NCBI RefSeq assembly: GCF_003097495.1
Contig: NZ_QEOP01000001.1
Span: 992,001 to 1,056,000 of the forward strand
Direction: 5' to 3'
Length of the DNA: 64,000 nt
DNA from: Amnibacterium flavum
GTDB taxonomy: Bacteria; Actinomycetota; Actinomycetes; Actinomycetales; Microbacteriaceae
The notes below the pieces were generated by a model, which did no database searches, was not told the DNA's origin, and was given only the letters and a program-made list of their open reading frames with translations. Below are positions 18,841 to 45,593 of the stretch, piece after piece (position 1 is the stretch's first letter; every line of letters starts with the position of its first letter). Both the position numbers and the translations under genes were made by a program.

Positions 18841-18896
18841 GAGTTGCCCAGTTCGGCCCCTATTCCTGAGGTCTTGTGGGCCGAACTGGGCGACTC
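18841..18896. repeat. 56-bp palindromic element, family 2, copy 1
   Basis: Arms of 19 bp (18841-18859 and 18878-18896; outer word GAGTTGCCCAGTTCGGCCC) enclose an 18-base centre. Only two of 56 positions differ from the copy at 27848-27903. It sits six bases after pncA and ten before the LysR stop, at a convergent junction, where it could also act as a bidirectional terminator. Confidence 0.9.
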
Positions 18897-27847: not shown

Positions 27848-27903
27848 GAGTCGCCCAGTTCGGCCCCTATTCCTGAGGTCTAGTGGGCCGAACTGGGCGA
27901 CTC
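27848..27903. repeat. 56-bp palindromic element, family 2, copy 2
   Basis: Arms 27848-27866 and 27885-27903 are perfectly complementary over 19 bp. The sequence differs from copy 1 (18841-18896) at one arm position and one centre position. It lies between the convergent flavin reductase and ABC exporter genes. Confidence 0.9.
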
Positions 27904-42339: not shown

Positions 42340-43563
42340 TCAGGACTTGGCCGCGGCCTTGCTGCCGGTCTTCGTCTCGAGGTCGTCGGCCTTGGCCAGC
42401 TCGTCGGTCGTGGGAACGGACTCGCGGCGCTTCGCCTCTTCGCGAGCGTCGCTGCGGATCTGTCGGGCGAGCCTCCACTTGCGGATTCCGCGGGCCCCGC
42501 GGTACTCCTCTTTCGCCCGCTCCAGATTCGACTTCGCGACGAGGCGTCGGGCGTCTTCGAGCTGGCGCGCGTGCTCGAGCTCGAGCTCCTCCTCGGACAG
42601 CGAGCGGGGGTCGATGCCGGCGTCCTTCATGCCGACCGAGATCCACGAGGCGGCGATGAGCATCGCCTGACAGACGAAGTTGAGGAAGATCATGAGGCCA
42701 AGAACCGCGAACCCGGCCAGGAGCGGGTTGCTGCCTGTGCCTCCGATGAGGCCGAGCGTCACGGCCGCCTTGAGTACGCCCAGGGCGGCGGCGCCGATCG
42801 CGGCTCCGGCGAAGAGGCGCTTGGGCGGGATGCGGATCGCGGAGAGGATCCGGTAGGCGGCTGCCAGGGTGAGCAGGTCGATGGCGAACACGATGACGTA
42901 GCCGATGATGCGAGCGACGATGACGGCGAAGAGGGACTCGTCGTCGATCCCGAGGAGCCCGAAGACGGCGCCGAGGGCGGCGGTGCTGACGACGGAGAGG
43001 ATCGCGGAGATCAGGATGACGGCGCCGAAGCCGAACGCCAGGCCGAGGTCCTTGGCCTTCTGGATCGCGAAGGGCGCGGCGAGGGTGGGAAGGTCGAAGA
43101 TGCGGCGGATGGCGTCCCGCATGGAGGCGAGGAATCCGACGGCGGTGAGAAGCAGACCGATGAGCGCGATGGCGGCGGTCCAGGTGAGTCCGTCGGTCGA
43201 TTCGAGGGTGTCGGGCGAGATGAGGCCGTCCTCGCCGACGATGCCGGGCACCGCGTTGTTGATCGCGTCGAAGATCGCCTGCTGGAGCGTGGGGTTGGCG
43301 GCGACGACGAAACCGAGCACCGAGAAGGCGACCCAGATGGCTGCGAAGAGCGCGAAGACCGCCTGGTAGGTCATGCCGGCGGCGAGAAGCGCCCCGCCGT
43401 TGGCACCGTAGTGCAGGAAGACGCGGACGGGGCGCAGGGCGAGGATCTTGGCGATCAGCGCCGCGAAACCCGTCTTCGGCTCCTCGGGAGTCGCTTTGGC
43501 ACCGACCGCGGGGGTCTCGTATTCGTCGTCCTTCACCGCTTGCGCATCAGGAGACTTGGCCAC
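42340..43563 (-). CDS. YihY/BrkB family membrane protein
   Basis: A 407-residue integral membrane protein with about six helices between residues 40 and 300, including GALLAAGMTYQAVFALFAA and VSVGMKDAGIDP-adjacent segments typical of YihY/virulence factor BrkB. Residues about 315-407 form a long charged tail (EEELELEHARQLEDARR onward), probably a cytoplasmic coiled-coil. The function of the family is unresolved; despite older names it is not a nuclease. The start GTG 43563 has a leaderless promoter. Confidence 0.88.
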   Translation of the reverse strand: MAKSPDAQAVKDDEYETPAVGAKATPEEPKTGFAALIAKILALRPVRVFLHYGANGGALLAAGMTYQAVFALFAAIWVAFSVLGFVVAANPTLQQAIFDAINNAVPGIVGEDGLISPDTLESTDGLTWTAAIALIGLLLTAVGFLASMRDAIRRIFDLPTLAAPFAIQKAKDLGLAFGFGAVILISAILSVVSTAALGAVFGLLGIDDESLFAVIVARIIGYVIVFAIDLLTLAAAYRILSAIRIPPKRLFAGAAIGAAALGVLKAAVTLGLIGGTGSNPLLAGFAVLGLMIFLNFVCQAMLIAASWISVGMKDAGIDPRSLSEEELELEHARQLEDARRLVAKSNLERAKEEYRGARGIRKWRLARQIRSDAREEAKRRESVPTTDELAKADDLETKTGSKAAAKS

Positions 43564-43575: not shown

Positions 43576-43643
43576 GTGAGCCCGCTGTGAGCACCCTGGC
43601 CCCAACCTGAACGCGAGCTCACTCTCCGCGCCCCGCCCTCTCC

Positions 43644-43749
43644 CTCAGCAGGCGAAATGCCCCGTCTCCCCTCGCTCAGCAGGCGAAAGTGTGTCCAGCA
43701 GTTGGAATTCGGGCTATCCGGCCTGCTGAGCGCCTTTTCACCTGCTGAG
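43644..43749. repeat. Left CTCAGCAGGTGAAA repeat array (family 3)
   Basis: Five units of a 14-base word and its reverse complement lie here: direct at 43644-43657 and 43675-43688 (AGGCGAAA variants), a degenerate direct copy around 43695-43707, a truncated inverted copy at 43722-43732, and an inverted copy at 43736-43749. The last overlaps the 3' end of the DUF559 gene. Confidence 0.85.
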
Positions 43750-44580
43750 CGAGAGGGCGGCTTGGATAGTGGTGAGAATGAGATTCCAGTCATAGATGAC
43801 CTGGGCGTAGCTGAAATGGAGAACCGTGTAGCCCCCCTGGGTGAGTAAGGCGGTGCGACGCCGATCCTTCGTGAATGCCTCCCGCTGCGCGTGCGTTTCA
43901 CGTCCATCGAGCTCGATGACCAGTCGCTCGCCGATGAGCAGATCCACTCGACCGATCTCGCCGACGACCACTTGAGGAACGGCGCGGATTCCCGACTGAA
44001 GCAGGCGGAATCGGGCGATGGACTCGATACCCTCCTCGCTTCGCTCGTCGAGTGAAGAGAGCAGGGTTGTCCGATGAGGAGGAAGGGTGGCCGTCATCTT
44101 CTCGATCGTTCTCGTGCTGAGGACCCGTCGATGAAGAAGCGAGTCGAGAACCGCAACGGAGTAGTGGGCCGGTTGGCATTCGAGAAGGTGACCGAGCGCT
44201 CGTTCAATGGTGCTCGCGCCAGTCGACCACTCCTGGTGCGTGAGTTTGGACCCCCAGTGCGCTGTGACGTCCTCGCCCTTGCCGTCTTCGCGGGACCGCG
44301 CGAGCCGTCGACCGGAAGACGAGGCCGGCATCGCGATGTGCAGTCCGGAGTCCGGTGGGCACCATGATCCGTAGAGCCGGAGGGCTGAGACGCACCCGAT
44401 TCGTCCGCCCGCTCGCATGGCACGGATCATCTGCGCATCGGTCCCGGGCTCGGCGTACCACCCGCGATGCACCTGCCACAGGCGCTCTTCGCGGACGGCC
44501 CGGGCGATGTCTGCAGCTCCAAAGCCGCGGGAGCGCAGTTCGGCGGTCGAAAGAAGCGGGCGGCTGAGCAACCGGGTCAT
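43738..44580 (-). CDS. DUF559-domain nuclease-like protein with AbiEi-like N terminus
   Basis: A 280-residue protein from ATG 44580 (an upstream in-frame ATG at 44649 adds 23 unlikely residues). Residues 10-45 (STAELRSRGFGAADIARAV, WQVHRGWYA) look like the winged-helix start of AbiEi-type antitoxins. Residues about 205-265 form a DUF559/Vsr-like PD-(D/E)xK core, with Asp213 in GRVDLLI and Glu223-Leu-Asp225 in VIELDG. No cognate toxin gene is adjacent. Codon use appears less GC-biased than neighbours. The stop codon and last codons fall inside a repeat unit. Role: unknown, possibly defence-related or repeat-associated. Confidence 0.8.
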   Translation of the reverse strand: MTRLLSRPLLSTAELRSRGFGAADIARAVREERLWQVHRGWYAEPGTDAQMIRAMRAGGRIGCVSALRLYGSWCPPDSGLHIAMPASSSGRRLARSREDGKGEDVTAHWGSKLTHQEWSTGASTIERALGHLLECQPAHYSVAVLDSLLHRRVLSTRTIEKMTATLPPHRTTLLSSLDERSEEGIESIARFRLLQSGIRAVPQVVVGEIGRVDLLIGERLVIELDGRETHAQREAFTKDRRRTALLTQGGYTVLHFSYAQVIYDWNLILTTIQAALSLSR

Positions 44581-44684
44581 ACCGAGACGATGGCCGGGCA
44601 AGGGCCATCGTTGCGGTCGCTTGCGGCCGCCTGTAGAGAAGTCCGGCACTCAGACGACTCTGCAGGACACGAGCCGCGCTTTCG

Positions 44685-44790
44685 CTCAGCAGGTTGAAAC
44701 ACGCTCAGCAGGTGAAATCTGACCGATTCCACCTGCTGACGGCATTTCTGCCTGCTGAGCGAGAGGAACGGGCCGATTTCACCTGCTGAG
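44685..44790. repeat. Right CTCAGCAGGTGAAA repeat array (family 3)
   Basis: Two direct units (44685-44699, with one extra T, and 44704-44717) are followed by three inverted units (44727-44740, 44745-44759, 44777-44790). CAGCAGGTG at 44706-44714 pairs perfectly with CACCTGCTG at 44730-44738. The order direct then inverted mirrors the left array. The array fills most of the 230-base gap between sdhB and the DUF559 gene; no other gene is seen there. Confidence 0.88.
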
Positions 44791-44810
44791 CGAAAGGGCT
44801 GAGGGAGAGG

Positions 44811-45593
44811 TCAGGCGTGGCCGCGGAGGACTGCTTGCTTGACTTCCTGGATGGCCTTCGTGACCTCGATGCCGCGGGGGCAGGCCTCGGAGCAGTTGAA
44901 TGTGGTGCGGCAGCGCCACACGCCTTCTTTGTCGTTGAGGATGTCGAGGCGCACCTTGGCGGCCTCGTCGCGGTCGTCGAAGATGAAGCGGTGCGCGTTG
45001 ACGATCGCGGCCGGCCCGAAGTACTGGCCGTCGGTCCAGAACACCGGGCACGACGAGGTGCACGCCGCGCAGAGGATGCACTTGGTCGTGTCGTCGAAGC
45101 GCTCGCGGGCGGCGACGCTCTGGGTGCGCTCGCGCACCGGGTTGCCGCTGGCCTGCAGGAACGGCTGGATCTGACGGTACGACTCGAAGAACGGCTCCAT
45201 GTCGACGATCAGGTCCTTCTCGAGCGGAAGGCCCTTGATCGCCTCGACGTAGATGGGCTGCGTCGGGTCGAGATCCTTGATCAGGGTCTTGCAGGCGAGA
45301 CGGTTGCGGCCGTTGATGCGCATCGCATCCGAACCGCAGATGCCGTGCGCGCACGAACGGCGGAATGTCAGCGAGCCGTCCTGCTCCCACTTGATCTTGT
45401 GCAGCGCATCGAGGATGCGGTCCGTGGGGAGGACGCGGACATCGAAGTCCTGCCAGCGCGGCTCCTCATCGATCTCGGGGATGAACCGGCGGATGATGAG
45501 GGTGACGACGAACGACCCGGGAGGGCCTGCTTCGAGGTCGGAGATGCTCGACTGGGTGGGAGCCTCGACGGCGTCGACGATGAGTGTCGACAT
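44811..45593 (-). CDS. sdhB: Succinate dehydrogenase iron-sulfur subunit
   Basis: A 260-residue subunit carrying all three clusters of complex II: the 2Fe-2S site in SCAHGICGSDAMRING and downstream LAC, and CILCAACTSSCP with CSEACPRGI for the 4Fe-4S and 3Fe-4S clusters. It passes electrons from SdhA to the membrane quinone site. It is last in sdhC-sdhD-sdhA-sdhB and overlaps sdhA by one base. Confidence 0.97.
   Translation of the reverse strand: MSTLIVDAVEAPTQSSISDLEAGPPGSFVVTLIIRRFIPEIDEEPRWQDFDVRVLPTDRILDALHKIKWEQDGSLTFRRSCAHGICGSDAMRINGRNRLACKTLIKDLDPTQPIYVEAIKGLPLEKDLIVDMEPFFESYRQIQPFLQASGNPVRERTQSVAARERFDDTTKCILCAACTSSCPVFWTDGQYFGPAAIVNAHRFIFDDRDEAAKVRLDILNDKEGVWRCRTTFNCSEACPRGIEVTKAIQEVKQAVLRGHA

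Follow-up and report, generated by a model that had tools for sequence, protein, structure and literature searches.

Repeats of the REP and REPIN kinds are widespread in bacteria, and all mobile forms known to us are tied to one enzyme family, RAYT. DUF559, the nuclease family considered here, is still listed as a domain of unknown function. RAYT genes are described as flanked by two palindromic repeats, many of which lie right at the stop codon (PMC3116915, PMC2817692, PMC8266576). In SBW25, three REPIN groups are reported, each beside its own RAYT (PMC3116915), and TnpA-REP and REP are stated to have co-evolved (PMC8266576). No tie between DUF559 and palindromic repeats was found in the searchable portions of the open-access PMC literature.

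The window analysed is a 64,000 nt stretch of the Amnibacterium flavum genome (contig NZ_QEOP01000001.1, positions 992,001 to 1,056,000). It contains a DUF559 / REase_MTES_1575-like gene at 43738..44649 on the reverse strand, identified from the ORF, Pfam, AlphaFold and Foldseek. The start codon is GTG, and the predicted 303 aa protein joins an AbiEi-like N-terminal half to a C-terminal nuclease domain of the Vsr/EDxHD type (Pfam, PADLOC and fold comparison; the motif name EDxHD follows PMC3943268). The match to PF04480 (DUF559) scores 37 bits, above the gathering cut-off of 20.6, and those to PF18741 (REase_MTES_1575; 31.2 bits, cut-off 38.2) and PF13338 (AbiEi_4; residues 30-67, 20.6 bits, cut-off 25) are below theirs. 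Pfam nuclease matches cover residues 215-298 and 239-299, and PF04480 was matched in 42 and PF18741 in 44 of 46 homologues (E 0.01). Pfam and the alignment of these homologues place the nuclease domain at about residues 206-299 (43753..44034, reverse strand, computed from the ORF). The AbiEi-like winged-helix region occupies about residues 30-100 (44350..44562, reverse strand), as judged from the sub-cut-off Pfam match, the PADLOC AbiEi models, which match residues 31-97 and 29-111, and the Foldseek match to 6y8q. The alignment, A1, holds 46 of the 50 homologous loci described below, leaving out L050 (truncated), L067 and L081 (stop inside) and L027; E209, D236, E246, H253, D262 and R265 are among its nine invariant columns, as would be expected of an active nuclease.

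The AlphaFold model has a mean pLDDT of 89.5 and a pTM of 0.85. Two Foldseek matches have E < 0.001, namely the AbiEi antitoxin 6y8q (E 2.2e-4, TM 0.49 on target, rmsd 5.5) and the catalytic domain of I-Bth0305I, 3r3p (E 8.7e-4, TM 0.71 on target); 3hrl ranks sixth with E 0.027. A sequence profile search returned 3hrl at 7.8e-10 and 3r3p at 1.1e-4. In the profile alignment to 3r3p the residues of the active-site region (E209, D236, E246, H253 and D262) are not all aligned, and the fold is shared. The earlier note, made from the sequence alone, had read the protein as an AbiEi-like winged helix with a DUF559 nuclease, and Pfam, PADLOC and the confident fold model back that reading.

We know of no dispersed cognate repeats for I-Bth0305I, which resembles the window protein in its nuclease fold and differs in having been deposited as a mobile intron protein. 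It reportedly forms a dimer on a target just under 60 bp long (PMC3943268), a size like that of the palindromes described here. AbiEi and Rv2827c are described as binding inverted repeats in their promoters (PMC7319586). The window protein resembles AbiEi in fold, and differs from it in having no adjoining nucleotidyltransferase toxin gene, in being fused to a nuclease, and in having repeats on both sides as well as dispersed ones. By analogy, a dimer target of about 60 bp (I-Bth0305I) and inverted-repeat binding (AbiEi) would fit a protein that spans a palindrome.

The DUF559 nuclease domain is also that of VsrA, a Vsr-like protein of Caulobacter described as triggering a DNA damage response in cells without a methylase (PMC12907096). 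VsrA differs in that its proposed mismatch-repair role is tied to a cytosine methylase, and dispersed repeats are not mentioned in the available portion of that source. Together with the weak matches of the window protein to PADLOC AbiEi and homing-endonuclease models, this precedent favours a defence or self-marking nuclease, which would cut foreign DNA, the repeats serving to sequester the protein or to label the chromosome. The gene neighbourhood speaks against such a role. The adjoining genes encode an SdhB-like protein (44811-45593; Fer2_3, Fer4) and a BrkB/YihY-family protein (42340-43563), and all three genes read leftwards. Pfam searches of these two neighbours found no toxin, methylase or defence gene, and the AbiEii nucleotidyltransferase toxin is absent from both. 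A fixed foreign target is also ill-suited because the repeat word differs between genomes, and we regard a defensive role as very improbable.

Two palindromic elements enclose the gene. The left element (43637..43756), downstream of the gene, has units at 43644 (+), 43675 (+), 43694 (+, decayed), 43717 (−, decayed) and 43736 (−), and the right element (44678..44799), upstream, has units at 44685 (+), 44704 (+), 44727 (−), 44746 (−) and 44777 (−). The two inverted-repeat arrays, with direct units followed by inverted ones, are confirmed as the earlier note described them; its count of five units per flank holds for the right array, and on the left three units are clear and two decayed. Arrays are present on both sides, but the left one reaches into the 3′-end of the gene and covers the stop codon. 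The repeat unit CTCAGCAGGTGAAA at 43736..43749 (reverse strand, read from the sequence and ORF) also codes for the last three residues and the stop of the 303 aa ORF; this unit, CTCAGCAGGTGA, encodes Leu-Ser-Arg-stop. The right array occupies the stretch 36-141 nt before the GTG start, which leaves about 20 nt between it and the neighbouring gene at 44811.

With up to 3 mismatches allowed, CTCAGCAGGTGAAA has 12 matches in the window, a number reached by 0 of 100 shuffles. Eight are in the two arrays, and the other four (1963, 26258, 44108 and 50855) are at chance level because 2.26 (sd 1.56) are expected. The word had been thought absent elsewhere, which is borne out in the window beyond chance level but not in the host genome, where 24 places carry a CTCAGCAGGTGAAA-type word with at most 1 mismatch, compared with 1 for the reversed control (3.57 Mb searched, in 13 contigs). 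Both arrays fold as long hairpins (left z = -4.98, right z = -7.54 against shuffles), as do two of the dispersed copies (z -5.72 and -6.10), and all four folded elements beat all shuffles. Three matches to microRNA precursors, far below the gathering score, were taken as a chance effect of the hairpins, and assignment to a known RNA family was rejected.

In the host genome, 13 elements at 11 sites (ten places and the window were read) share one register, with unit starts at +0, +31 and +50 followed by inverted units at +73, +92 and +123; at least one outer unit is usually decayed. Because elements elsewhere have this same register, the gene in the window is bracketed by two copies of a palindrome that occurs throughout the genome. 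All 10 element sites checked fall outside the genes called by a simple predictor. This predictor assigned some neighbours wrongly (the RsmD-like gene of L009, for example, was overlooked) and was used for the 'inside gene' result only. The repeats are extragenic and dispersed, and their inverted units form hairpins, as in REPIN/RAYT systems. According to the earlier note, a word common at unrelated intergenic sites would count against its proposal; the word does occur at such sites, and a REPIN-like model predicts exactly that. A separate cluster of CAGCAGG palindromes at L010 2294-2785 (host C2:307493-307984) is interleaved with related units, CAGCAGGTGC...TTCCTGCTG, and is partly repeated with a 214 nt period, which looks like tandem expansion.

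One host element lies between the ends of convergent ThiL-like and RsmD-like genes. These genes (Pfam AIRS and Cons_hypoth95) are adjacent in 8 genomes; the gap between them is 139 nt with the element in the host, and 16-60 nt without it in the 7 relatives. On these sequences, the simplest reading would be one gain in the host. Inspection of this site by eye revealed neither a target-site duplication nor an exact excision; the relatives are too diverged here for a clean before/after pair. A comparison of 12 host element loci with 26 loci of four other genomes, several of these being short, yielded 1 pair with shared flanking proteins (L034-L113).

The right array lies in the gap that separates the start codon from the gene upstream, a position that favours the main rival explanation, operator use, possibly in addition to mobilisation. 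Here the AbiEi-like half would bind the repeats and repress its own gene, and the scattered copies would be a regulon or decoys. The AbiEi similarity found by Pfam, PADLOC and Foldseek points the same way, as does the reported binding of AbiEi and Rv2827c to promoter inverted repeats (PMC7319586). However, the 3′-end of the gene has an equal array, which runs over the stop codon, and at least one of the scattered elements sits between the convergent gene ends described above. Up to 72 pattern matches per genome and the nuclease fusion are also left unexplained. In addition, the third DUF559 gene of the host has palindromes and no AbiEi match at E 0.001. The operator explanation is considered unlikely, and a mixed role in regulation and mobilisation is possible.

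The centre pattern CAGCAGG-N19-CCTGCTG was counted in nine genomes of the genus, designated G000 (the host) to G008, which have 18, 5, 1, 72, 10, 0, 0, 0 and 26 matches, respectively; the reversed control gives 0-1 per genome, and some matches to the real pattern are chance. Close relatives of the window protein are encoded by 7 genes, in G000, G001, G003 (two), G004, G007 and G008. In G002 and G005 the best matches reach 33-39% identity and are flanked by different words, and no relative was found in G006, a genome that is 68% complete. Five of the six gene-bearing genomes contain at least 5 pattern matches, compared with none of the three genomes without the gene. The presence and absence of gene and palindrome are largely parallel across the nine genomes. 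The exception is G007, in which the gene has units on both sides and there are 0 matches to the dispersed pattern; its arrays keep only the widely spaced units. In G002 and G005, the 1.5 kb that follow the SdhB-like gene contain no pair of CARCAGG units, and the gene beyond differs.

Array units are found on both sides of all 7 subfamily genes in the genus, but the word varies. The flank word is CAGCAGGTGAAA in the window gene, CAGCAGGCATGG and CAGCAGGACTTTC in the two G003 genes, CAGCAGGAACAA in G008, CAACAGGCAGAA in G004, CAACAGGCAGA in G001 and CAGCAGGCA in G007. Six of the seven genes adjoin an SdhB-like gene; the exception, one of the two G003 copies, is found with its arrays on a different contig. 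The flank units of each gene were scored against the dispersed units of each genome, G007 having no dispersed set. The gene's own genome ranks first for G000, G001 (narrowly), G003 copy 1 and G008, is second by 0.1 for G004, and is last of five for G003 copy 2. The G008 gene (L050 / L026) has about 110 internal residues deleted, and 26 pattern matches persist in that genome; the deletion may reflect either decay after the repeats had spread or an assembly fault. In G003, six family palindromes lie in tandem, 90-94 nt apart, at C11:560221-560719 (L096), like REPIN clusters.

The host carries two further DUF559 genes with repeats of their own. The second (C2:1220301) is located between arrays of GCACGGATCAGGA, a word with 62 host matches at no more than 1 mismatch, 8 of them around this gene, and a control count of 0. 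A GATCAGG pattern for the centre of its palindrome has 11 matches in G000, 21 in G005 and 0-1 elsewhere. G005 is without the window subfamily and its palindromes, but has a GATCAGG-flanked gene, L058. G001 and G004 carry genes of the GATCAGG class yet have 0 and 1 pattern matches, and the centres of their elements differ. The third gene (C2:1172901) belongs to a more distant subfamily and is enclosed by two 56 bp palindromes, GAGTTGCCCAGTTC...GAACTGGGCAACTC (L021 717-772 and 1724-1779, 56 bp each), the right one of which begins in the stop codon. Two nearly identical 56 bp palindromes of this third family (GAGTTGCCCAGTTCGGCCCC...) occur 9 kb apart in the window, at 18841..18896 and 27848..27903. 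The host genome contains three palindrome families, each with its own DUF559 gene. A further open frame of 1254 aa at C4:97565 (L024), with an MTES_1575 nuclease match below the cut-off, has a different, long architecture.

For the wider DUF559 group, about 300 nt to the left and to the right of 50 homologous loci were aligned with each other in both orientations. These loci comprise 21 from the genus, 28 from other genera of the family, each the best locus of one of 28 genomes, and 1 from Glaciihabitans. The wider search gave matches in 75 of 150 genomes, from which the best 30 loci were taken, and the test covers the stronger homologues. Controls were 88 ORFs of similar size in 20 stretches of 20 kb at round coordinates in 14 of the same genomes; they were called by a simple longest-ORF caller and are mostly core genes, not accessory single genes. 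A flank score of at least 16, a threshold picked after the scores were seen, was reached by 40 of the 50 DUF559 loci and by 0 of the 88 control ORFs (highest control 15.5), and a score of at least 20 by 31 of 50 and 0 of 88. By group, scores of 16 or more were found at 19 of 21 loci in the genus, 21 of 28 in other genera and 0 of 1 in Glaciihabitans. Homologues lacking flanking repeats, which the earlier note had set against its own proposal, are thus a minority, with 10 of 50 below the threshold of 16; among these, L046 has array units by eye, and its motif score is not above shuffles.

Most of the flank repeats are palindromes built of direct and inverted units, with words that vary among loci. 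Other words include GATCAGGA, GATCCGGAG, AAATGCAGGA, GAATTCAGGA, AACTCAGGA, CCAAATCACGGAGA and CGTGTAGGT, and a core like CAGGA or CGGA is, by eye, common to many of them. The sequence GACACGCCG lies in the middle of repeats flanking L053, L054, L061, L068 and L089 and spans different word classes. Outside the family, a homologue at E 1e-20 was found in 0 of 197 further genomes sampled from the phylum. The group is not strictly family-bound because three Tsukamurella plasmid records, assigned to another order in their recorded taxonomy, contain full-length homologues with 32% identity. Two of these three loci were scored for flanks, giving 16.5, just above the highest control, and 11.5. At the locus scoring 16.5 (L185, plasmid NZ_LR134454.1), a short repeat, CTCACGATCTCGAGTTCTG, is found beside the AbiEi-DUF559 gene and near its 3′-end. 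One unannotated phage record also matched.

Protein and word were compared on a tree of 46 proteins, built by a quick method with SH-aLRT support only. Five word classes require 6 changes on this tree (minimum 4), compared with a shuffled mean of 16.9, and 0 of 200 shuffles were as low. Classes were assigned by hand to 27 of the 46 rows from flank alignments and automated words, a judgement that could flatter the result; labels for L057 and L077 follow the flank alignment, not the automated word, and that of L075 comes from AAATGCA in the automated word. The CARCAGG class forms one side of a branch with support 99, and GATCMGG likewise with support 98, both for labelled rows; the 19 unlabelled rows can lie inside groups, as does L060, which is without a clear repeat, inside the GATCMGG branch. 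WTCAGGM clusters moderately (as low in 4 of 500 shuffles), and TGCAGGA and ATCAMGG do not cluster singly (as low in 124 and 79 of 500). A first flank motif count, without composition correction, returned mostly GC-rich words and was replaced by a corrected count. With automated words at 35 of the 50 loci, those kept at a log-score of at least 5.5 after L081 (stop in the matched frame) had been dropped by hand, word similarity and protein similarity are correlated (r 0.34, Spearman 0.17), and the largest of 5000 permutations gave 0.21. The families also dissociate between genomes, with CAGCAGG and GATCAGG pattern matches of 72 and 0 in G003, 0 and 21 in G005, and 18 and 11 in G000. On this comparison, enzyme and repeat word co-evolve, with exceptions.

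This pairing bears on a further rival explanation, in which the palindromes spread otherwise, by replication slippage, gene conversion or another enzyme, and DUF559 genes merely insert into them or persist beside them. The element copies that remain in G008 despite its damaged gene are in its favour, and no transposition footprint was seen at the ThiL-RsmD site. However, it does not account readily for three different palindromes in one genome, each with its own DUF559 gene, for words that cluster on the protein tree, or for the largely parallel presence and absence of gene and repeat. We consider it quite improbable.

REPIN/RAYT is among the closest known systems. In both, an enzyme gene is located between two palindromes, the repeats are dispersed and extragenic, and each enzyme has its own repeat class. 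The analogy drawn by the earlier note is stronger than could be seen at that stage, given the dispersal, the bracketing of 7 of 7 genes, a word that follows the protein subfamily, and the failure to find a RAYT; the note's interpretation as a whole is partly supported. The differences are that RAYT is a Y1 HUH transposase acting on single-stranded REPs, whereas here a Vsr/EDxHD-type nuclease is joined to an AbiEi-like half, and that the units form direct repeats followed by inverted repeats. The Y1 transposase domain PF01797 was found in 0 of the 9 genomes of the genus (one 68% complete) and in 5 of 14 control genomes. We therefore regard the window system as REPtron-like in the way it works but place it outside that class, because the anatomy is alike and there is no Y1 transposase match in the nine genomes.

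A REPIN/RAYT-like partnership built on an unrelated enzyme, with the nuclease moving the palindromes, is the explanation we judge probable. In this partnership each DUF559 protein of the group would recognise one short word, which is present as two or three direct units followed by inverted copies and so forms a palindrome of roughly 55-125 bp. The gene sits between two such palindromes, with more copies in other intergenic gaps. The AbiEi-like half would bind the units, with a dimer probably spanning the palindrome, and the Vsr/EDxHD-type nuclease domain would nick or cut at the palindrome, in the duplex or in an extruded hairpin. The element may then be copied to new intergenic sites as the break is repaired or as the hairpin is transferred, and the gene may persist by serving, or by parasitising, the repeat population. 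Binding, cutting and mobilisation are thus putative activities of the DUF559 protein.

A gene with its own palindromes suggests an unrecognised way of keeping and spreading small DNA repeats. If an unrelated enzyme family has the REPIN/RAYT anatomy, the partnership arose more than once. This would suggest a substrate for DUF559 and would provide many natural protein-word pairs for learning DNA recognition, and it could explain palindromic repeats in genomes without RAYT. A broader proposal, which we put at slightly short of an even chance, is that these systems are a second, independently evolved class of REPIN-like mobile repeats, served by AbiEi-Vsr/EDxHD nucleases and not by HUH transposases. 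They would move by the cutting of both strands and repair of the break, in a manner akin to homing but directed at repeats. Dozens of protein-word pairs would have diversified across Microbacteriaceae, possibly also in other actinobacteria, and would amount to a natural code that relates nuclease sequence to DNA word.
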